Below the pieces are notes generated by a model. That model was given only the letters and a program-made list of their open reading frames with translations, was not told where the DNA came from and did not search any database. Below, piece by piece: positions 31,061 to 40,379 of a DNA stretch of 64,000 nucleotides (position 1 is the first letter of the stretch; each line of letters opens with the position of its first letter). The position numbers and the translations under genes were made by a program. This DNA comes from an uncultured Ruminococcus sp. (lineage in GTDB: Bacteria > Bacillota > Clostridia > Oscillospirales > Ruminococcaceae), in NCBI GenBank assembly GCA_947345935.1, contig CAMZZN010000008.1, positions 1-64,000 on the forward strand, given 5' to 3'.

Positions 31061-31148
31061 AACGTGTTCACATAAAAATAGAATGCACGTCATTTCAGTA
31101 AAATTTGCCGAAATGACGTGTGAAAAATGTTGTGAAGACAGGTTCTAA
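31057..31148. repeat. Nested palindromic element between the PBP and lysR genes
   Basis: The outer arms are TTAGAACGTGTTCACA (from 31057) and TTGTGAAGACAGGTTCTAA (31130-31148), imperfect inverted repeats. An inner perfect 11-bp stem pairs CACGTCATTTC (31086-31096) with GAAATGACGTG (31110-31120). The outer arm includes the PBP stop codon (31058-31060). The element is about 92 bp without a T-tract, so it looks more like a mobile palindrome than a simple terminator. Confidence 0.6.
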
Positions 31149-31164
31149 AAGTCAGGGGGATTTT

Positions 31165-32097
31165 ATGAATATATTACATATTAAATATGCTATCGAAGTT
31201 GCCAGAGTCGGCTCGCTCAATAAAGCGGCTCAGAATCTTATTCTTGCTCAGCCTAATCTGAGCCGGTCCATTAAGGAACTGGAAGCAGAGATGGGCATAA
31301 AAATATTTGAACGTTCTGTAAAAGGTATGGTACTCACTCCGGAAGGGGAAGAATTTATAGAATATGCAAAAGGAATAATAGATCATATAAACCAGGTTGA
31401 TATGATCTATAAATCAGGTGCGGCAAAAAAGCAGAAATTTTCGGTATCCGTGCCAAGAGCCTGCTATATTTCAGAAGCGTTTGTAGAGTTTTCAAAATCG
31501 ATTCCTGATACAAATACGGAAATATTCTATAAAGAAACCGATTCAAAAAGTACGATAAACGATATACTCGATTCTGATTACAAGCTTGGAATAATCCGGT
31601 ATTCAAGCAACTATGACAAGTATTTCAAATCCATGCTTGAAGAAAAGGGACTTTCGTACGAGATGATCGCTGAATTCAGTTATAAGCTTATTATGAGCAT
31701 GGATAATCCGCTTTCACATAAGGAAACAATAACTTTTGATGATCTGGAGGATTATATAAGAATCTCTCATGCTGACCCTCATATTCCATCGCTCTCAATT
31801 GCAAAGGCTATGCGTGAAGAACTTCCTGATAACATCAGACGCTGTATTTATATTTTTGAACGTGCAAGTCAGTATGATCTTCTTTCTAAAAATTCTCAGA
31901 CGTATATGTGGGGATCTTCTGTGCCCGCCGGCGTACTTGAAAAGTATTGTCTTGTACAGCGTGATTGTAAAAGCAATAAAAAAATTTACAAGGATCTTCT
32001 GATATATCGCAGCGGATATAAGTTTACAGAACTTGACAATAATTTTATAACCGAGTTATGCCGGTCACGCCGGCGTAATCTTGGATATAATCTCTGA
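31165..32097 (+). CDS. LysR-type regulator upstream of adhE-hyd operon
   Basis: A 310-residue LysR-family regulator with N-terminal winged helix (MNILHIKYAIEVARVGSLNK, AAQNLILAQPNLSRSIKELE, ERSVKGMVLTPEGEEF) and an effector domain. I start at ATG 31165, 7 bases after GGGGGA. It lies 184 bases upstream of adhE in the same direction, an unusual orientation since LysR genes usually diverge from their targets. Two dyad sequences lie in the gap. Control of the ethanol/hydrogen operon is plausible but unproved. Confidence 0.92.
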   Translation: MNILHIKYAIEVARVGSLNKAAQNLILAQPNLSRSIKELEAEMGIKIFERSVKGMVLTPEGEEFIEYAKGIIDHINQVDMIYKSGAAKKQKFSVSVPRACYISEAFVEFSKSIPDTNTEIFYKETDSKSTINDILDSDYKLGIIRYSSNYDKYFKSMLEEKGLSYEMIAEFSYKLIMSMDNPLSHKETITFDDLEDYIRISHADPHIPSLSIAKAMREELPDNIRRCIYIFERASQYDLLSKNSQTYMWGSSVPAGVLEKYCLVQRDCKSNKKIYKDLLIYRSGYKFTELDNNFITELCRSRRRNLGYNL

Positions 32098-32158
32098 TGA
32101 TGCAGCAGAGATCTATGAAAACGAATTACGTTGCTTTGTGGATAATTCGATATATTCT

Positions 32159-32180
32159 GGTTATATCAATCGTGATAACC
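32159..32180. promoter_or_regulatory. Imperfect dyad upstream of the adhE promoter
   Basis: GGTTATATCAATCGTGATAACC: arms GGTTAT/ATAACC with inner TCA/TGA, about 20 bases upstream of the -35 box. Position and dyad form suit an activator site, for example of the LysR protein encoded just upstream. Confidence 0.4.
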
Positions 32181-32199
32181 TATTATAACATTCTTATAT

Positions 32200-32228
32200 T
32201 TTACAAATAATGAAAAGTTTGTTATAAT
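32200..32228 (+). promoter_or_regulatory. Sigma-A promoter of the adhE-hyd operon
   Basis: TTTACA (32200-32205), 17 bases, perfect TATAAT (32223-32228), leaving a leader of about 45 bases before the adhE start. No other promoter of this quality is seen until after hydA2. Confidence 0.75.
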
Positions 32229-32236
32229 AATAACGA
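32219..32236. promoter_or_regulatory. Rex-like operator overlapping the -10 box
   Basis: TTGTTATAATAATAACGA is an 18-base dyad matching 11 of the 14 fixed positions of the Rex operator consensus TTGTTAANNNNTTAACAA. It covers the -10 box of the adhE promoter, as expected for NADH-responsive repression by Rex in Clostridia. No rex gene lies in this window. A/T-richness makes chance resemblance possible. Confidence 0.4.
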
Positions 32237-32281
32237 AGTCGGAACTATCTGACGTACAGATAATTATACAGGAGGATTATT

Positions 32282-34993
32282 ATGGAGAATAAGGCTTATG
32301 AAATTGTGGACAGTGTTGAGAAACTTGAAGAAGCTATCAGCCGTACACGAAAGGCACAGAAAATTTTTTCAACCTTTACTCAGGCACAGGTAGATAAGAT
32401 ATTTTTTGCTGCTGCATCTGCCGCAAACAAGGCAAGAATTCCGCTTGCTAAGCTTGCTGTAGAAGAGACGGGAATGGGAATTGTCGAAGATAAGGTTATC
32501 AAAAATAACTATGCGTCCGAGTATATTTACAACGCATACAAAAATACAAAAACCTGCGGTGTTATTGAAGAGGATAAGGCGTATGGGATCAAGAAAATAG
32601 CTGAACCTATCGGCGTTATTGCTGCTGTAATACCTACTACCAATCCTACTTCAACTGCTATTTTCAAATGCCTTGCTGCATTGAAAACAAGAAATGCAAT
32701 TATAATTTCTCCGCACCCGAGAGCAAAAAAATCCACCATAGAGGCTGCAAAGATCGTTCTTGAAGCAGCCGTTGAAGCAGGCGCTCCGGAAAATATTATC
32801 GACTGGATAGATATTCCGTCCATTGAAATGACAAATATGGTTATGAAAGAAGCAGATATAATTCTTGCTACCGGAGGTCCGGGAATGGTCAAGGCAGCTT
32901 ATTCCAGCGGTAAACCGGCGCTTGGCGTAGGAGCCGGAAATACTCCTGCCATTATCGACGACAGCGCCGACATACTGCTTGCCGTGAATTCTATAATTCA
33001 TTCAAAAACCTTTGACAACGGCATGATCTGCGCTTCTGAACAGTCTGTGATCGTAATGGAAAAAATATACGATACCGTTAAAAATGAATTTACTGAAAGA
33101 GGATGCTATTTCCTCACTGATGCAGAAATCGAAAAAGTTCGCAAAACTATGATTATAAACGGCGCTCTTAATGCACGGATTGTAGGACAGTCTGCTGCTA
33201 AGATCGCTGATCTTGCCGGAATTGAAGTTCCTGCTGGTACAAAAATTCTTATAGGAGAAGTGGAAAGCGTCGAACTCAGCGAGGAGTTTGCTCACGAAAA
33301 GCTGTCTCCCGTTCTTGCAATGTATAAGGCTAAGAACTTTGACGACGCTCTCGATAAGGCGGAAAGACTTGTAGAGGACGGCGGCTACGGTCATACTTCG
33401 TCGGTTTATCTGAACGAGATTACTGAAACGGAAAAGTTGGACAAATTCAGCAAACGTATGAAAACTTGTCGTATCCTTGTCAATACGCCGTCGTCTCATG
33501 GAGGCATAGGAGACCTTTATAATTTCAAGCTGGCTCCGTCCCTTACCCTCGGCTGCGGCTCATGGGGAGGAAATTCTGTAAGTGAAAACGTAGGTGTAAA
33601 GCATCTTATCAATATAAAAACTGTTGCAGAAAGAAGGGAAAATATGCTGTGGTTCCGTGCGCCTGAGAAGATCTATATAAAGAAAGGCTGCCTGCCGGTT
33701 GCTCTTGATGAACTGAAAACAGTAATGGGCAAAAAGAGAGCGTTTATCGTGACCGATACTTTTCTTTATAAAAACGGCTATACCAAAGCTATTACCGACA
33801 AGCTTGACGAAATGGATATTGAGCATACAACGTTCTTTAATGTTGCTCCAGATCCGACGCTTGCTTCCGCAAAGGAAGGCGCAGCAATTATGACGGCGTT
33901 CCAGCCTGATACGATCATTGCTCTCGGCGGAGGCTCTGCAATGGATGCAGCTAAGATAATGTGGGTACTTTATGAACATCCAGAGGCTGATTTCATGGAT
34001 ATGGCAATGCGCTTTATCGACATCCGGAAGAGAGTTTACACATTCCCGAAAATGGGAGAAAAAGCATATTTTGTTGCAATTCCCACATCTGCCGGAACAG
34101 GCTCTGAAGTTACGCCGTTTGCTGTAATTACAGATGAAAAGACAGGTGTAAAATACCCTCTTGCCGATTATGAGCTGCTTCCTGATATGGCTGTTATAGA
34201 TACCGATTTCCATATGTCCGCTCCAAAGGGACTTACTGCAGCATCGGGTATCGACGCCGTAACTCATGCTCTTGAAGCTTATGCGTCAATGATGGCGACA
34301 GATTATACTGATGGTCTTGCCAAGCAGGCATTGCAGGTAATATTCAAGTATCTTCCCAGGGCTTACGAAAACGGACAGAATGATATCGAAGCTCGTGAGA
34401 AAATGGCAAATGCGGCAACAATGGCAGGTATGGCGTTTGCTAATGCATTTCTTGGAGTATGTCACTCAATGGCACATAAGCTCGGAGCTTTTCATCATTT
34501 GCCTCACGGCGTTGCCAACGCTCTTATGATAGAGGAAGTGCTTCGTTTCAATTCATCTGAAGCTCCGGCAAAAATGGGAACATTTTCACAGTATGGTCAT
34601 CCGCATACTCTTGCTCGTTATGCCGAGGTTGCTGAATCGCTCGGAATCAAAGGCGATACGGATGAAGAAAAGCTTGAGGGACTTATCAGTGCAGTCAATG
34701 AGCTTAAAGCGGAAGTCGGCATAAAGGAAACTATCAGAGACTACGGTATTGAAGAAAGTACTTTCCTTGAAACGCTTGATGAAATGACCGAACAGGCATT
34801 TGACGATCAGTGTACGGGAGCAAATCCGAGATATCCCCTTATGAGCGAGATTAAGCAGATGTATCTTAACGCTTATTACGGCGGCAGACATTTTGCCGAA
34901 GCAGAAATGCCTGTAAAATATACAGCGGAAAATGAAAAGCCGGATTCGGTTAAAGCCGTATACAATAGCGGCAGGAAAAGCAACAGAGGCTAA
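32282..34993 (+). CDS. adhE: Bifunctional acetaldehyde-CoA/alcohol dehydrogenase
   Basis: A 903-residue enzyme that reduces acetyl-CoA to acetaldehyde and then to ethanol with two NADH. The N-terminal aldehyde dehydrogenase half (about 1-440) has PIGVIAAVIPTTNPTSTAIF, the NAD loop GVGAGNTPAIID and the catalytic Cys in FDNGMICASEQSVIV. The C-terminal iron-dependent alcohol dehydrogenase (about 455-870) has IIALGGGSAMDAAK, IPTSAGTGSEVTPFAVI and the metal ligands in DAVTHALEAYAS and CHSMAHKLGAFHHLPHG. AGGAGGA precedes the ATG. It opens the operon that ends with hydA2: ethanol and H2 are the two ways to dispose of fermentation electrons. Confidence 0.97.
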   Translation: MENKAYEIVDSVEKLEEAISRTRKAQKIFSTFTQAQVDKIFFAAASAANKARIPLAKLAVEETGMGIVEDKVIKNNYASEYIYNAYKNTKTCGVIEEDKAYGIKKIAEPIGVIAAVIPTTNPTSTAIFKCLAALKTRNAIIISPHPRAKKSTIEAAKIVLEAAVEAGAPENIIDWIDIPSIEMTNMVMKEADIILATGGPGMVKAAYSSGKPALGVGAGNTPAIIDDSADILLAVNSIIHSKTFDNGMICASEQSVIVMEKIYDTVKNEFTERGCYFLTDAEIEKVRKTMIINGALNARIVGQSAAKIADLAGIEVPAGTKILIGEVESVELSEEFAHEKLSPVLAMYKAKNFDDALDKAERLVEDGGYGHTSSVYLNEITETEKLDKFSKRMKTCRILVNTPSSHGGIGDLYNFKLAPSLTLGCGSWGGNSVSENVGVKHLINIKTVAERRENMLWFRAPEKIYIKKGCLPVALDELKTVMGKKRAFIVTDTFLYKNGYTKAITDKLDEMDIEHTTFFNVAPDPTLASAKEGAAIMTAFQPDTIIALGGGSAMDAAKIMWVLYEHPEADFMDMAMRFIDIRKRVYTFPKMGEKAYFVAIPTSAGTGSEVTPFAVITDEKTGVKYPLADYELLPDMAVIDTDFHMSAPKGLTAASGIDAVTHALEAYASMMATDYTDGLAKQALQVIFKYLPRAYENGQNDIEAREKMANAATMAGMAFANAFLGVCHSMAHKLGAFHHLPHGVANALMIEEVLRFNSSEAPAKMGTFSQYGHPHTLARYAEVAESLGIKGDTDEEKLEGLISAVNELKAEVGIKETIRDYGIEESTFLETLDEMTEQAFDDQCTGANPRYPLMSEIKQMYLNAYYGGRHFAEAEMPVKYTAENEKPDSVKAVYNSGRKSNRG

Positions 34994-35008
34994 AGGAGGA
35001 ATGATGAT

Positions 35009-35758
35009 ATGAAACTTGACAGAGTGATTGCAGTCAGAAACAATAAAACTATATACCGTGACGGTGATACCTGTATAAAGGTGTTCAATGATGATTATTC
35101 AAAGGCAGACGTATTGAACGAAGCTCTTAATCAGTCCCGTGTTGAGGAAACCGGACTTAACATACCGAAGATACTTGAGGTTACCAGGATCGACGGCAAA
35201 TGGGCGATAATTTCTGAATTTATCAAGGGAAAAACGCTTGCTCAGCTTATGGAAGAAAATCCTGATAAAAAACAGACGTATATAGAACAGCTCGTTGATA
35301 TACAGCTCGAAATACAGTCTAAAACCTGTCCGCTTCTGAATAAGCTTAAAGACAAAATGAACTGCAAAATAAGCGCCTGTGAGCTTGACGCAACAACAAG
35401 ATATGATCTTCATACACGTCTTGACGGTATGCCAAAGCATAACAAAGTTTGTCATGGAGATTTAAATCCGTCAAATATTATCATAACCAACGACAATGTG
35501 CCGTATATTATAGACTGGGCTCACGTTACCCAGGGAAACGCTTCTGCCGATGCAGCCAGAACTTACCTTCTGTTCTGGCTTAACGGAGATATCGAAGGAG
35601 CCCGTGTTTATCTTGATCTTTTCTGTGCAAAGAGCAACACTGCAAAACAGTATGTCCAGAAGTGGATGCCTATAGTGGCGGCTTCACAGTCTGTTAAGGG
35701 AAATGAAAAGGAAAGAGAATTTCTGCTTTCATGGGTCGATGTTGTCGACTATGAATAA
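35009..35758 (+). CDS. APH-fold kinase of the hydrogenase operon
   Basis: A 249-residue kinase-like protein of the aminoglycoside/choline phosphotransferase fold. The catalytic loop is KVCHGDLNPSNIIITNDN (HGDxxxxN) and the metal-binding Asp lies in YIIDWAHV; the N-terminal lobe has WAIISEFIKGKTLAQLMEEN. It is small for this fold and has no drug-resistance context. The R. albus 7 hydrogenase unit was reported to encode a serine/threonine protein kinase; this gene holds the corresponding place, so it may phosphorylate a protein, but small-molecule substrates cannot be excluded. AAAGGAGGA precedes the ATG. Confidence 0.85.
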   Translation: MKLDRVIAVRNNKTIYRDGDTCIKVFNDDYSKADVLNEALNQSRVEETGLNIPKILEVTRIDGKWAIISEFIKGKTLAQLMEENPDKKQTYIEQLVDIQLEIQSKTCPLLNKLKDKMNCKISACELDATTRYDLHTRLDGMPKHNKVCHGDLNPSNIIITNDNVPYIIDWAHVTQGNASADAARTYLLFWLNGDIEGARVYLDLFCAKSNTAKQYVQKWMPIVAASQSVKGNEKEREFLLSWVDVVDYE

Positions 35759-35779
35759 TTTATCAGGAGGAATATGCAA

Positions 35780-36019
35780 ATGAAAGTAACAGTATGTATT
35801 GGCAGCTCATGCCATATAAAGGGTTCACGAAGCGTAGTTGAACAGCTTCAGTATCTTATTTCTGAAAATAATCTCGGCGATAAGGTGGAACTTGGCGGAA
35901 CTTTCTGTATGGGAAATTGTCAGAAAGGCGTATGTGTTAATGTTGACGATGAATTTTACTCTGTAACTCCTGATACAGTAAAGGAATTTTTTGAGACGGG
36001 CATCATGGCTAAACTTTAA
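35780..36019 (+). CDS. Stand-alone thioredoxin-like [2Fe-2S] ferredoxin
   Basis: A 79-residue protein resembling the C-terminal part of NuoE/HydC-type subunits. The four cluster cysteines are in VCIGSSCHIKG (Cx4C) and FCMGNCQKGVCV (Cx3C). I choose ATG 35780, 9 bases from AGGAGG; ATG 35774 is only 3 bases away. Such small proteins occur beside sensory and monomeric [FeFe]-hydrogenases in Clostridia and may carry electrons to or from HydS, but a partner is not proven. It lies between the kinase and hydS. Confidence 0.85.
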   Translation: MKVTVCIGSSCHIKGSRSVVEQLQYLISENNLGDKVELGGTFCMGNCQKGVCVNVDDEFYSVTPDTVKEFFETGIMAKL

Positions 36020-36047
36020 TGTGGATTGAAAGGAGAATAACTGACCC

Positions 36048-37724
36048 ATGACAAATTGGCTTACATTAAAAAAATCCAACTGTAAAAACTGTTATAAATG
36101 TATTCGTCATTGTCCTGTAAAGGCAATACGTTTTTCGGGGAATCAGGCGCATATTATAGGAAACGAATGTATTCTCTGCGGTCAGTGTTTCGTTGTTTGT
36201 CCGCAGAATGCAAAAGAAATAACCGACAGTGTTGAAAAATGCAAGGTTCTGCTTCAGGGCAGCGATCCTGTTGTAGTCAGTCTTGCACCGTCGTTTATTG
36301 CAAATTATGAGGGCGTCGGAATCGACTCAATGCGTGAAGCGCTCCGGAAGCTTGGATTCTATGACGCTGAAGAAACGGCGATAGGCGCAACTATAGTAAA
36401 AAATGAGTATGAACGCATCCTTCGTGAAGAAAACAGAGACATACTTATTTCGTCATGCTGCCATTCGCTTAATCTTCTTATACAGAAATATTTTCCGGCG
36501 GAGCTTGCATATCTTGCAGATGTGGCATCGCCAATGCACGCTCACTGCATTGATATAAGAAAGAGAATTCCAAATGCAAAGACGGTATTTATCGGTCCTT
36601 GTGTTGCAAAAAAGGATGAAGCTGAATATTATGAGGATGCAGCAGATGCCGTATTGACTTTTGAAGAACTTACAGAATGGCTTAAAAGCGAAAATATCGA
36701 ACTTAAAAAAGATATTGATGTAAGAAGGGACAGTCTTGCCAGGTTCTTTCCAACAACGGGGGGGATACTGAAAACAATGGAGCAAGGAATAAACGGCTAT
36801 ACATATATGGCAATTGACGGCGTTGAAAATTGCATAGCCGCTTTGAAAGATATTGAAAGCGGCAGAACGCATAAATGCTTTATTGAAATGTCGGTATGTT
36901 CCGGAAGCTGTATAGGCGGACCAGTAATGGAAAAATATCATCGTTCTCCTGTAAGAGATTTTGCTGCGGTAGCAGGCTATGCCGGATCGGATAATTTTGA
37001 CGTTGTTCAGCCTGATATGAACGAAATACATAAGGATTTTACGTTCATAGAACATAAGCTTCCTGTTCCGTCAGATATGGAAATAAATGAAGTTCTTAAA
37101 AAAATGGGAAAAACCAAGCCGTCAGATCATCTTAACTGCGGCTCATGCGGTTATAATACCTGCCGTGAAAAGGCTATAGCTATCTGTCAGGGAAAAGCTG
37201 AATACTCTATGTGTCTGCCGTTTCTGAAAGACAGAGCAGAAGGATTTTCTGATACTATTGTAAAGAATACGCCGAACGGTCTTATTGTTCTTAACGAAGA
37301 TCTTGAAGTGCAGCAGGTAAATGACGCTGCAAGATCAATTATGAACATCCGGAATGCTTCAGATGTATTGGGAGATCAGGTTATTCGTATTCTTGATCCG
37401 ACAGATTTTGTAAACGTTCTTGCAATGGGAAAAAATATCCGGAATAAACGGGTATATCTCGCAGAGTATAACCGATATGTTGAGCAGACTATCGTTCATG
37501 AGAAAAATCTGCATTTGCTTATCGGGATCATGCGTGATGTTACCGACGAGGAAGAAGCCAGGGAACGGAAAGAGAATTTCAGCCGGCAGACGGCTGAAGT
37601 TGCTGACAAGGTAGTGGAAAAGCAGATGCGCATAGTTCAGGAGATAGCGTCGCTGCTCGGTGAAACTGCCGCTGAAACAAAGATAGCGCTTTCAAAGTTA
37701 AAGGGGTCGATTTCTGATGAATAA
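36048..37724 (+). CDS. hydS: HydS, putative H2-sensing [FeFe]-hydrogenase with PAS domain
   Basis: A 558-residue protein. Two 4Fe-4S clusters: C12/15/18/22 and C41/44/47/51. The hydrogenase large domain follows with altered motifs: ISSCCHSLN (C137, C138; usually TSCCP), IGPCVAKKDEAE (C185) and IEMSVCSGSCIGGP (C284, C288), so all cysteines expected to hold the H-cluster remain. Next is a four-Cys Fe-S domain (NCGSCGYNTC ... C, about 378-405), then a PAS domain (about 410-520: NTPNGLIVLNEDLEVQQVND) and a C-terminal helix. There is no kinase or DNA-binding output domain. The hydS name and sensor role come from published work on R. albus 7. It overlaps the phosphatase gene by 8 bases, pointing to that protein as partner. 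Confidence 0.93.
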   Translation: MTNWLTLKKSNCKNCYKCIRHCPVKAIRFSGNQAHIIGNECILCGQCFVVCPQNAKEITDSVEKCKVLLQGSDPVVVSLAPSFIANYEGVGIDSMREALRKLGFYDAEETAIGATIVKNEYERILREENRDILISSCCHSLNLLIQKYFPAELAYLADVASPMHAHCIDIRKRIPNAKTVFIGPCVAKKDEAEYYEDAADAVLTFEELTEWLKSENIELKKDIDVRRDSLARFFPTTGGILKTMEQGINGYTYMAIDGVENCIAALKDIESGRTHKCFIEMSVCSGSCIGGPVMEKYHRSPVRDFAAVAGYAGSDNFDVVQPDMNEIHKDFTFIEHKLPVPSDMEINEVLKKMGKTKPSDHLNCGSCGYNTCREKAIAICQGKAEYSMCLPFLKDRAEGFSDTIVKNTPNGLIVLNEDLEVQQVNDAARSIMNIRNASDVLGDQVIRILDPTDFVNVLAMGKNIRNKRVYLAEYNRYVEQTIVHEKNLHLLIGIMRDVTDEEEARERKENFSRQTAEVADKVVEKQMRIVQEIASLLGETAAETKIALSKLKGSISDE

Positions 37725-38889
37725 TCTTTGTGCAGATATAGGCTATAAAAGTATTTATCACTATGGCGAGGAACTTTGTGGCGATCATGTTGACATCGTT
37801 GAACAGGATGAAAATTCAACAGTTGTAGTTCTTGCCGACGGATTAGGAAGCGGTGTTAAAGCGAGTATTCTTTCGACTCTTACGTCAAAAATAATTTCAA
37901 CCATGATGGCAGCCGGACTGTCTATAGAAGAATGCGTAAGCACTATCGCCGCTACTCTTCCAGTCTGCTCGGTAAGAGGCGTTGCATATTCGACGTTTAC
38001 AATAATACATATTAAAAACAATGATACAGCCGATATTATTCAATATGATAATCCCCACGTTATTCTTATCCGAAATAATGAAAATTACGTTTATCCGGAA
38101 ATGGAGATGAATATTGACGGAAAACGTATTTATAAATCTACGATAAAGCTTTGTGAAAATGATATTTTTATTGCAATGAGCGACGGATGTCCTCATGCGG
38201 GAATAGGTATCGGTTATAATTTCGGGTGGAAGCGTGAAGAAATCATTGAATTTATGGAAGCTCTTTCAAATTGCGGATATACTTCGAAAACACTTTCAAC
38301 TATTCTTATTGATGAATGCAATAAGCTTTACGGCGGAGAACCCGGGGACGACGCCACCGCTTGCGTAATAAAAATACGCAGAAGAGAACCTATGAATATT
38401 CTTTTCGGGCCTCCGTCCAACAGGAATGACTGCAACAGAATGATGTCCCTGTTTTTCTCAAAAGAAGGAAAGCACATCATATGCGGCGGAACGACTTCTT
38501 CAATTGCAGCGAAATTTCTTCGCAGGCCGCTCAGACCGAGTCTTAATTTTGAAAGTTCTGATATTCCGCCTATTGCCGAGCTTGAGGGAGTAGACCTTGT
38601 AACGGAGGGCGTTATAACTGTAAACAGGGTGCTTGAATATGCCCGTGATTACCTTGATAAAAACGAATGCTATGAAAAGTGGAACTTCAAGCGTGACGGA
38701 GCTGCCTTGATAAGCAGACTTCTGTTTGAAGAAGCTACTGATATAAATTTCTATGTCGGACGGGCAATTAATCCTGCCCATCAGAATCCCGATCTGCCTA
38801 TTAATTTCAGTATTAAGATGAATCTTGTAGAAGAACTCTCAGCCTGTCTGAAAAAAATGGGAAAACGTATTAAGGTTAGTTATTTTTAG
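37717..38889 (+). CDS. SpoIIE/PP2C-type serine phosphatase coupled to HydS
   Basis: A 390-residue protein. Residues about 1-220 are a PP2C (SpoIIE-type) phosphatase: metal ligands in VVLADGLGSGVKAS, IFIAMSDGCPHAGIG and EPGDDATACVIKI. Residues about 225-390 form a separate conserved-looking domain (ILFGPPSNRNDCNRMMSLFF, then GGTTSSIAAKFLRRPLRP) that I do not recognise; it may be regulatory or catalytic. The gene starts within the end of hydS, so the two proteins are made in fixed ratio. With the APH-fold kinase this gives a candidate kinase/phosphatase pair reading the state of HydS. The substrate is unknown. Confidence 0.9.
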   Translation: MNNLCADIGYKSIYHYGEELCGDHVDIVEQDENSTVVVLADGLGSGVKASILSTLTSKIISTMMAAGLSIEECVSTIAATLPVCSVRGVAYSTFTIIHIKNNDTADIIQYDNPHVILIRNNENYVYPEMEMNIDGKRIYKSTIKLCENDIFIAMSDGCPHAGIGIGYNFGWKREEIIEFMEALSNCGYTSKTLSTILIDECNKLYGGEPGDDATACVIKIRRREPMNILFGPPSNRNDCNRMMSLFFSKEGKHIICGGTTSSIAAKFLRRPLRPSLNFESSDIPPIAELEGVDLVTEGVITVNRVLEYARDYLDKNECYEKWNFKRDGAALISRLLFEEATDINFYVGRAINPAHQNPDLPINFSIKMNLVEELSACLKKMGKRIKVSYF

Positions 38890-38900
38890 GAGGTAGTCAG

Positions 38901-40322
38901 TTGAGAAAATTTGATACGAAAATACAGCATCTTAAATATAAGGTTCTGCGTGAAGTTGCAAAGCAGGCATGGAATGATACGCTGCTTGAAAACGTTCTTA
39001 ATATTCCTGAAATAATTGTGCCGGGAAAAGTACCTACCATGCGCTGCTGCGTTTACAAGGAGCGGGCTATCCTTTCAGAGCGTGTAAAAATGGCTATCGG
39101 CGGCGATAAGGATAATCCCAATGTTATACAGGTAATAGATATTGCCTGTGACGAATGTCCGGCTGCCGGCTATGAAGTGACTGATTCCTGCCGTGGATGT
39201 CTTGCTCACCGCTGCGAAGATGTATGTAAAAGGGGAGCGATATCCTTTGACCATAATCACGTTGCTCATATCGATAAAACGTTGTGCGTTGAATGCGGAC
39301 AATGCGCAAAGGTTTGTCCGTATTCGGCAATCATAAACAGAAAACGTCCATGTCAGATAGCCTGCAAGGTAAAAGCGATAAAGATCAACGAAGAAAATGC
39401 CGCTTACATTGATAACGATAAGTGTACAAACTGCGGAGCCTGCGTTTATCAGTGTCCGTTCGGAGCTATTACCGATAAATCTTACATACTTAACGTTATT
39501 GATCTTATCCGGAAAAGTGAAAATGAAAAAAGCTATAAGATATATGCGATTGTTGCTCCGTCAATTTCCAGCCAGTTTACTTATGCAAAGCTCGGTCAGG
39601 TGATAGCCGGTCTGAAAAAACTTGGATTTCATACCGTCGTGGAGGCGGCGCTCGGAGCGGATATGGTCGCACTGGAAGAATCAAAGGAGCTTGCAGAAAA
39701 AGGATTTCTTACAAGTTCCTGTTGTCCGGCATTCGTAAAATATGTAAAATCGGCATTTCCGGATATGCAGCAGTATGTCTCGCATAATCTTTCGCCAATG
39801 GCAACAATTGCAAAATATATCAAGGAAACGACAGAAAATGCAAAAACTGTCTTTATAGGTCCTTGTACTGCCAAAAAAGCCGAAGCTCAGCTTGATACGG
39901 TAAAGCCGTATATTGACGCTGTGCTTACCTTTGAGGAACTTCAGGCGCTTTTTGATAGCCGTGATATTGATATAACCGAACTTCCGGAGGATGTTCTTGA
40001 TAACGCATCATATTACGGACGTATTTTCGCACGTTCCGGAGGTCTTTCAGATGCAGCGGCTCAGGGACTCAAAGAACAGAATATAGATTTTGATCTTAAA
40101 GCGGTTTCGTGTAACGGAATAGAAGAATGTCGTACAGCGCTTATGAAGAAAAGCAGAAATGTTCTTGACGGCAACTTTATCGAGGGCATGGCGTGCATAG
40201 GCGGATGTATCGGCGGAGCGGGATGTCTTACTCACGGTATGAAAGATAAAGCCGAAGTCGATAAATACGGCAGGGAAGCGTATGAAAAAACTATTTCTGA
40301 CGCCGTTTCCGTTTTAAAATAA
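38901..40322 (+). CDS. hydA2: HydA2, monomeric ferredoxin-dependent [FeFe]-hydrogenase
   Basis: A 473-residue hydrogenase of the kind called group B. The N-terminal region has Cys-rich segments (MRCCVYKERAILSERVKMAI, IACDECPAAGYEVTDSCRGC) and two 4Fe-4S motifs (CVECGQCAKVCP and CTNCGACVYQCP). The H-cluster motifs are complete: LTSSCCPAFV (C274, C275), FIGPCTAKKAEAQ (C322) and EGMACIGGCIGGAGC (C432, C436). The published R. albus 7 homologue uses reduced ferredoxin to make H2. TTG start with AGGAGGT upstream. It ends the operon at a strong terminator. Confidence 0.94.
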   Translation: MRKFDTKIQHLKYKVLREVAKQAWNDTLLENVLNIPEIIVPGKVPTMRCCVYKERAILSERVKMAIGGDKDNPNVIQVIDIACDECPAAGYEVTDSCRGCLAHRCEDVCKRGAISFDHNHVAHIDKTLCVECGQCAKVCPYSAIINRKRPCQIACKVKAIKINEENAAYIDNDKCTNCGACVYQCPFGAITDKSYILNVIDLIRKSENEKSYKIYAIVAPSISSQFTYAKLGQVIAGLKKLGFHTVVEAALGADMVALEESKELAEKGFLTSSCCPAFVKYVKSAFPDMQQYVSHNLSPMATIAKYIKETTENAKTVFIGPCTAKKAEAQLDTVKPYIDAVLTFEELQALFDSRDIDITELPEDVLDNASYYGRIFARSGGLSDAAAQGLKEQNIDFDLKAVSCNGIEECRTALMKKSRNVLDGNFIEGMACIGGCIGGAGCLTHGMKDKAEVDKYGREAYEKTISDAVSVLK

Positions 40323-40344: not shown

Positions 40345-40379
40345 AAACAACGGCATCCCATTACGGAATGCCGTTGTTT
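40345..40379. terminator. Bidirectional terminator between hydA2 and DUF308 gene
   Basis: A perfect 12-bp stem, AAACAACGGCAT (40345-40356) with ATGCCGTTGTTT (40368-40379), followed by T-rich DNA on the plus side and A-rich DNA on the other. It lies between two convergent genes. Confidence 0.88.

Follow-up and report, generated by a model that had tools for sequence, protein, structure and literature searches.

The closest described counterpart of the locus examined here is a gene cluster of Ruminococcus albus 7, carried on plasmid pRUMAL01 (NC_014824, RUMAL_RS17345-RS17385) in the order LysR-rex-adhE-phosphotransferase-[2Fe-2S]-[2Fe-2S]-HydS-SpoIIE phosphatase-HydA2. According to the passages of PMC6776011 consulted, the eight-gene cluster of R. 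albus is down 111-fold when the organism is grown together with an H2 consumer; its authors suggested induction of the unit at high H2 by the sensory hydrogenase together with its phosphatase. Our locus lies on contig CAMZZN010000008.1 of an uncultured Ruminococcus sp., within an analysed stretch of 64,000 nucleotides that we call the window, where seven co-directional genes at 31165-40322 encode a LysR-family regulator, AdhE, an APH-fold kinase, a [2Fe-2S] protein (Fd2), the hydrogenase HydS, a PP2C phosphatase and the hydrogenase HydA2. As judged by sequence, this unit is of the known kind represented by the pRUMAL01 cluster: it shares the gene order and an 8-base hydS/phosphatase overlap, and the HydS proteins are 69% identical, whereas the R. 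albus cluster has rex before adhE, two [2Fe-2S] genes (the second Fd2 copy, present in many relatives, is missing from the window unit) and a plasmid typed as mobilizable (MOBP). Comparison across genomes leads us to consider it reasonably probable that the unit would be a merger of two modules, a split receptor in which the phosphatase is the output of HydS, and an adhE-kinase pair.

An earlier reading made from the letters alone (hereafter the sequence-only reading) had named six of these genes and pointed to the R. albus unit as already described, correctly in both respects: all six lie on the + strand at exactly 32282-40322 in the window's list of open reading frames (ORFs), and their identities and the 8-base overlap were upheld by Pfam and NCBIfam matches and by recurrence in relatives. 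Additionally, the LysR gene at 31165-32097 belongs to the unit, being a frequent member in close relatives. As the gene order of the unit recurs in relatives, the arrangement goes beyond chance. The same reading had regarded the signal chain as unsolved, which agrees with the literature passages seen.

HydDB group C3, 'phosphatase-linked (putative)', likewise combines a putative H2-sensing [FeFe]-hydrogenase with a Ser/Thr phosphatase (PMC5037454, in the part seen), and by sequence the window unit fits this group, with no difference in the features tested (the HydDB classifier was not applied). In Thermoanaerobacterium, HfsB, HfsC and HfsD of the hfsABCD genes are counterparts of HydS, the phosphatase and HydA2 (passages of PMC11837493 and PMC5707799), HfsC being described as serine-phosphatase-like and HfsD as HydA2-like (PMC11837493); from gene order we infer that HfsA corresponds to Fd2. 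Unlike the window unit, hfsABCD comprises four genes with no adhE or kinase, and adhE (tsac_0416) lies elsewhere. Bacillus subtilis RsbP resembles the window pair in that a sensor PAS domain and a coiled coil precede a PPM/SpoIIE-type phosphatase (PMC3183031, in the part seen). It differs in that the window's receptor and phosphatase are two chains, with a hydrogenase domain in the receptor and an extra C-terminal domain in the phosphatase. The regulatory [NiFe]-hydrogenase of Ralstonia, of another hydrogenase class, works with HoxJ, a kinase in place of the phosphatase. This system is similar to that of the window in being an H2 receptor acting via phospho-signalling (part of PMC5707799).

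HydS and the phosphatase

We listed the genes around HydS for 200 loci, 191 of them with distinct HydS. Where there was room to tell, the phosphatase was the next gene in 177 of 179 non-fused HydS loci (168 of 170 distinct ones), although eight of the 179 (L197-L200, L202-L205) had entered through a phosphatase search and so favour pairing; locus L070, whose contig ends after hydS, was left out. The two genes overlap in 146 of the 177 pairs, in 105 by exactly 8 bases. The HydS tail described below is retained in both exceptions (L011 and L082), and matching PP2C sequence is found on another contig of each genome, as a 197-residue piece for L011 (G034) and as a full copy for L082 (G405). An even draw of 159 phylum genomes gave the same picture from both sides: all 47 full-length HydS places were followed by the phosphatase, and 55 of the 56 phosphatase genes of this subfamily followed some HydS, 47 of them a full-length and eight a more divergent or cut one. 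For this count a PP2C gene broken into two pieces was entered once, and the eight divergent-HydS places were set by hand. The sole stand-alone phosphatase (L201, G251:C1:44500-54500) is without HydS and sits beside a 377-aa membrane-protein-like frame. On a quick HydS tree, in which 162 of 199 rows remained after near-duplicates were dropped, the HydS-PP2C link changes three times, compared with 13 changes for the kinase (150 loci), 15 for adhE (105), 14 for LysR (82) and 20 for Rex (88). Fd2 lies upstream of HydS in 157 of 171 loci. By sequence comparison, HydS and the phosphatase are thus well supported as a functional pair. The sequence-only reading had the H2 signal passing from HydS to the phosphatase; the association it implied is supported by the linkage, the overlap and the tree, and the passing of a signal is putative.

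The phosphatase consists of a catalytic domain (about residues 1-225) and a C-terminal domain (226-390) of no recognised family. Its PF07228 match and four aspartates invariant in 67 sequences (D41, D156, D211 and D212, to which we presume a metal role) mark it as a SpoIIE/RsbU-type PPM phosphatase, and in a structural comparison that covered only residues 1-223 well, the catalytic fold matched SpoIIE and RsbU-type domains. The C-terminal domain is for the most part well predicted and carries GPP, GGTT, TEG and NPAHQNP motifs. Its 165 residues gave no Pfam match in the window protein, no Pfam or NCBIfam family was found in more than one of 24 members (the best Pfam match was PrpR_N in one member, E 0.0037), and the best hit among solved structures reached only E 0.16. 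A DeoR-like sensor domain, considered on account of the GGTT motif, was supported by no search. At L213 (G240:C4:70000-84000), adhE, kinase and Fd2 are followed, with no HydS, by a 187-aa open frame matching only this C-terminal domain (query residues 218-390), either a relic or a domain kept alone.

HydS has two N-terminal [4Fe-4S] sites, an H-cluster domain (74-292), a C-terminal FeS domain (362-391), a PAS domain (about 396-511) and then a conserved tail (about 519-545). The PAS domain scored 21.4 bits in the whole protein, under the cut-off of 22.6, and 22.8 bits with the C-terminal part alone. Across 176 sequences conservation was 1.00 at cysteines 138, 185, 284 and 288, which we take to be the H-cluster ligand positions, and 0.99-1.00 at cysteines 364, 367, 372 and 389. 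The H-cluster domain with its ligand cysteines, the C-terminal [4Fe-4S] domain followed by PAS and the linked phosphatase gene are all as in the C3 sensory class; a C-terminal [4Fe-4S] domain and then PAS are given for group C in the part of PMC13104023 seen. The PAS domain that the sequence-only reading ascribed to HydS is in place, as are the conserved cysteines and the tail; H2 sensing itself is putative. In TamHydS, a related group D enzyme without PAS, the C-terminal cluster is reportedly not reduced by H2 (PMC13104023), which points to a conformational rather than an electron-relay signal in that protein. Residue 137 of HydS, a proton-relay position, is a cysteine (weighted fraction 0.71 of relatives), whereas the sensory TmHydS and TamHydS have alanine there by motif reading; low turnover should therefore not be assumed for the window HydS.

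The tail is among the most conserved parts of the protein, the windows starting at residues 522 and 525 having the two highest values. Its core (519-545) averaged 3.40 bits in the same 176 sequences, equalling the best part of the FeS domain, whereas the H-cluster domain averaged 2.33 and PAS 1.97. Among the loci compared, the tail motif occurred in 166, all in reading frames of HydS by length, and in none of 20 loci with fused outputs. Its conservation together with its absence from fused forms suggests a docking element, by analogy with PAS-coiled coil-phosphatase proteins such as RsbP, here split over two chains. No HydS-PP2C fusion was seen, the frames being separate in all tabulated loci having both, and no sensor of the RsbP type is fused to the N-terminus of the window phosphatase; full-length PP2C frames of the phylum search measured 379-504 aa.

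The fused forms came from the 159 phylum genomes, where 39 of 86 HydS places match only the first 400-466 residues and the other 47 reach the query end. Twenty of the 39 were hand-picked and fetched, and all encode fused proteins (732-1068 aa), in which Pfam assigns the output as sigma-54 activator in 11, histidine kinase in 8 and GGDEF-HD in 1; in none is the phosphatase the next gene. Domain comparison does show the HydS hydrogenase module in the apparent role of receptor on several kinds of signalling output. Fused and phosphatase types split once on the tree, with three further output changes among the fused types. The largest fusion, at L166, joins the module to GAF-GAF-histidine kinase (1068 aa), and that at L167 to GGDEF-HD (810 aa). 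Three HydS relatives among the unfetched places (G397:C40, G365:C14 and G364:C245) are of 554-581 aa and match only the first 400-421 residues of HydS.

AdhE and the kinase

Across 247 family genomes, kinase and AdhE were both present in 74 and both absent from 157, with the kinase alone in 10 and AdhE alone in 6. The corresponding counts for kinase and HydS were 34 with both, 50 with the kinase only, 62 with HydS only and 101 with neither (odds ratio 1.1, P 0.78). These counts used thresholds of E 1e-25 for the kinase and E 1e-300 for AdhE with at most three candidates per genome, and 96 long matches for HydS; the Fisher tests ignore kinship. The association extends to gene position: for 72 of 83 adhE genes a kinase gene lies no more than 1.5 kb away, and the two genes occur in three arrangements. 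In 30 of the 36 kinase loci that were fetched, adhE is the first or second neighbour. The 95 kinase genes long enough to use divide into 58 near adhE but not HydS, 13 near both, 21 near neither and only three near HydS alone, these three close to contig starts; adhE precedes the kinase on the same strand in 54 of them, is divergent in 13 and follows it in 4. Seen from HydS, 67 of 155 distinct loci with room carry the kinase upstream, and adhE is absent from 7 of 39 distinct loci with the kinase and at least 4.5 kb upstream. Genome association and adjacency together indicate, at the level of sequence, that the kinase goes with AdhE and has in some cases been retained by the HydS cassette.

The kinase protein has the APH family match, the fold, and HGDxNxxN and DW motifs, which we take to be marks of APH/choline-kinase-like enzymes. 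Its Pkinase score (PF00069, 22.5 bits) is below the cut-off of 31.7 expected of a Ser/Thr protein kinase. The 50 structural matches shown are all known or putative small-molecule kinases (APH, LicA choline kinase, homoserine kinase), and sequence-profile matches include LicA and hygromycin kinase. Sequence and model thus describe an APH/choline-kinase-like phosphotransferase, for which a role as protein kinase is only putative. A comparison of 63 kinase-linked with 12 unlinked AdhE sequences found no Ser/Thr specific to the linked form.

Two loci illustrate other arrangements. At L217 (G050:C5:48000-62500) adhE-kinase-Fd2 stands without HydS, and HydS-PP2C is on another contig of the genome; at L236 (G235:C5:75500-90000) the kinase immediately precedes a HydA2 relative, and neither adhE nor HydS is among the five genes to each side. 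A limited literature search found no paper on adhE with an aminoglycoside phosphotransferase in Ruminococcus, nor one joining adhE, Rex, hydrogenase, phosphotransferase and Ruminococcus.

Proposed signal path and its alternatives

In the reading we favour, the first module would be the widespread Fd2-HydS-PP2C cassette, accompanied in the window by HydA2. HydS would be an H2 or redox receptor by virtue of its H-cluster hydrogenase domain, C-terminal FeS domain and PAS, and the phosphatase from the overlapping next gene would provide its output, the two together being like a receptor phosphatase split into two chains. The state of the H-cluster might be relayed through PAS to the HydS tail, taken here as a helix, which would dock on the phosphatase and thereby alter Ser/Thr dephosphorylation of a target protein. 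The second module would be adhE with its own APH-fold kinase, a pair mostly found without HydS. Transcription of the whole unit would probably be controlled from the adhE promoter, through Rex, the linked LysR regulator or both, and HydS-PP2C would act mainly on protein activity. Owing to the comparison across genomes, this is sharper than the earlier idea that HydS talks to its kinase and phosphatase, and it offers separable tests in which each part could be removed alone: the phosphatase as likely HydS output, tail residues 519-545 as likely contact, the kinase as AdhE partner, and Rex as a separate candidate for the transcriptional response. What is at issue is the trade between ethanol and acetate plus H2 in gut fermenters as methanogens or other partners take H2, an old question of rumen biology and methane control.

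A number of observations weigh against this reading. Gene linkage of HydS and PP2C is not interaction, independent-pair tests were not significant, and the one split on the tree makes the mutual exclusion of fused and PP2C forms a single event. Covariation in 167 HydS-phosphatase pairs placed 21 of the top 200 residue pairs between the tail and the phosphatase C-terminal domain, where 5.6 would be expected; the strongest of all, however, are spread across other domains, and the signal, from only about 80 effective sequences, is weak. No result of the analysis points to a phosphatase substrate. In Thermoanaerobacterium saccharolyticum, furthermore, strains deleted for hfsA or hfsB had an ethanol yield increased about 1.8-fold and adhE mRNA increased two- and threefold, whereas loss of hfsC or hfsD sent flux to lactate with no rise in adhE mRNA or ethanol (passages of PMC5707799), so that the phosphatase gene does not behave as a simple effector of HydS there. 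The HydS homologue accordingly restrains ethanol in this organism, a sign opposite to the R. albus proposal. Overexpression of hfsD gave high ethanol in a T. thermosaccharolyticum strain without hfsABCD (PMC11837493, in the part seen), and much of the known hfs phenotype may therefore come from HfsD. Loss of hfsA or hfsB also increased NADH-linked alcohol dehydrogenase activity and left NADH-linked aldehyde dehydrogenase activity unchanged (PMC5707799, same passages), a pattern that, for the hfsB deletion, fits post-translational action.

The sequence-only reading had HydS driving the phosphatase so as to oppose the neighbouring kinase on a shared protein substrate. The three genes are indeed co-directional in the window, the seven kinase-bearing HydS loci without adhE indicate that the kinase can stay with HydS alone, and Zheng et al., as reported in the part of PMC5707799 seen, proposed the adjacent Ser/Thr kinase as target; however, kinase and HydS co-occur in the family genomes as chance predicts, kinase genes are found far more often by adhE without HydS than the reverse, most HydS loci with room have no kinase upstream, the Pkinase score is below its cut-off, and the nearest structures are small-molecule kinases. 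With no genome-level association to HydS and a strong one to AdhE, the opposition of phosphatase and kinase was not supported, and we consider this scheme rather improbable. Nearly as probable as its opposite, in our estimation, is a metabolic role without signalling, in which the APH-fold kinase would phosphorylate a small molecule, for instance a by-product or cofactor-like compound, for the AdhE pathway. The structural and profile matches agree with such a role, as does the failure to find an AdhE Ser/Thr specific to kinase-linked sequences, although the kinase profile weakly touches Bud32-type and bacterial Ser/Thr kinases and none of the metabolites of the AdhE reactions is known to us to require an enzyme of this sort. 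It is unlikely that, in this family, a dedicated kinase modifies AdhE (or its filament) and so sets ethanol flux, a circuit that HydS lineages would have captured by means of an H2-gated phosphatase; were this true, dissolved H2 would directly set the phosphorylation state of the ethanol enzyme.

The H2 response might instead owe nothing to HydS if a rise in H2 raised NADH, Rex left the adhE operator and the unit was transcribed, HydS-PP2C doing something else. In the window, the -10 of the adhE promoter is overlain by a Rex-operator-like palindrome. Where adhE comes first, 13 of 19 loci match the Rex consensus, as we take it to be, at no fewer than 12 of 14 positions (mean best 11.53, against 9.53 in shuffles), although these relatives are of common descent, a score of 12 is attained by only 6 of 17 rex-first loci, and the window site is imperfect, its score of 11 being reached by 8% of shuffles of the region. 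Over the whole window there were 11 Rex-like matches with at most three mismatches, with 6.5 expected. Several lineages encode Rex beside HydS, as the R. albus cluster does, and the window's genome has one Rex N-terminal family match, on another contig; in the 250 bases before R. albus rex, however, the best match is 9 of 14, which 98% of shuffles reach, and in T. saccharolyticum higher ethanol yield went with higher rex expression, contrary to the authors' expectation for a repressor (PMC5707799, in part). The sites at adhE-first promoters make Rex a live rival for the transcriptional response, and we regard this account as quite possible, if somewhat doubtful on balance. Partner switching, in which the substrate of the phosphatase would be a STAS anti-anti-sigma protein and an RsbW-type kinase would counteract it, appears very unlikely. 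The catalytic domain is SpoIIE/RsbU-like, as this would call for, but no STAS or RsbW-type gene is among the operon proteins, and neither was evident beside HydS-PP2C in ten distant loci, by reading and without a systematic family search. Both STAS matches in the genome are on other contigs, one a 112-aa frame beside genes read as SpoIIAB- and SigF-like, the other inside a 566-aa protein with the look of a SulP transporter. The genome also has a separate SpoIIE-family frame of 770 aa.

Features of the locus and its distribution

The coordinates of the unit and its flanking signals are given in Table 1. The LysR ORF spans 31120-32097, and we took as start the ATG used by many relatives; in its product Pfam recognises the HTH_1 domain only, the effector domain giving no match at E 0.001. 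The promoter-like site was the top of 34 in its scan, for which shuffles expect 24.0, and terminator-like sites numbered 4 against 8.2 in shuffles. No RNA family matched the window at gathering scores.

Table 1. Genes and candidate signals of the hydS unit, numbered from the first nucleotide of the window
Feature	Position	Strand	Evidence and remarks
LysR-family regulator	31165..32097	+	HTH_1 61.7 bits (Pfam); upstream of adhE, frequent there in close relatives
Promoter-like site TTTACA-17-TATAAT, TG before second hexamer	32200..32228	+	Upstream of adhE; 11/12 matches
Rex-operator-like near-palindrome TTGTTATAATAATAACGA	32219..32236	+	Covers -10 hexamer of adhE promoter; 11/14 to Rex consensus
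adhE, bifunctional acetaldehyde/alcohol dehydrogenase	32282..34993	+	NF010378 1394 bits (cut-off 951)
APHk, APH/choline-kinase-fold phosphotransferase	35009..35758	+	APH PF01636 49 bits (cut-off 23.2)
Fd2, 81-aa NuoE-like [2Fe-2S] protein	35774..36019	+	2Fe-2S_thioredx 34.9 bits
hydS	36048..37724	+	Fe_hyd_lg_C 155.8 bits, FeS PF04060 34.9 bits, PAS
hydS/phosphatase gene overlap, 8 bases	37717..37724	+	Phosphatase start over hydS stop
PP2C/SpoIIE-type phosphatase	37717..38889	+	SpoIIE PF07228 51.5 bits (cut-off 25), residues 32-220
hydA2, monomeric group B1 [FeFe]-hydrogenase, TTG start	38901..40322	+	TIGR04105 567.7 bits (cut-off 450)
Terminator-like hairpin, 16 pairs	40345..40379	. (scan: - strand)	Between hydA2 and convergent DUF308 gene

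The R. albus counterpart of HydA2 is called group A1 in the part of PMC6776011 seen. The window's genome has three [FeFe]-hydrogenase domain matches, namely HydA2, HydS and a 592-aa open frame. The nearest HydS proteins in named records are those of Ruminococcus flavefaciens and of Ruminococcus sp. metagenome-assembled genomes (87-88%), and none of three congeners sampled has a full-length HydS. No viral contig was found as a source of relatives. The cassette is plasmid-borne in R. albus 7 and in a Monoglobus record (L207 and L208), which, with its absence from the sampled congeners, suggests horizontal movement as far as sequence comparison can tell. One record titled Methanocorpusculum, an archaeon (L100, JAGARL010000248.1), carries LysR-Rex-kinase-Fd2-Fd2-HydS-PP2C-HydA2 of bacterial type without adhE, and is probably a wrongly binned contig.

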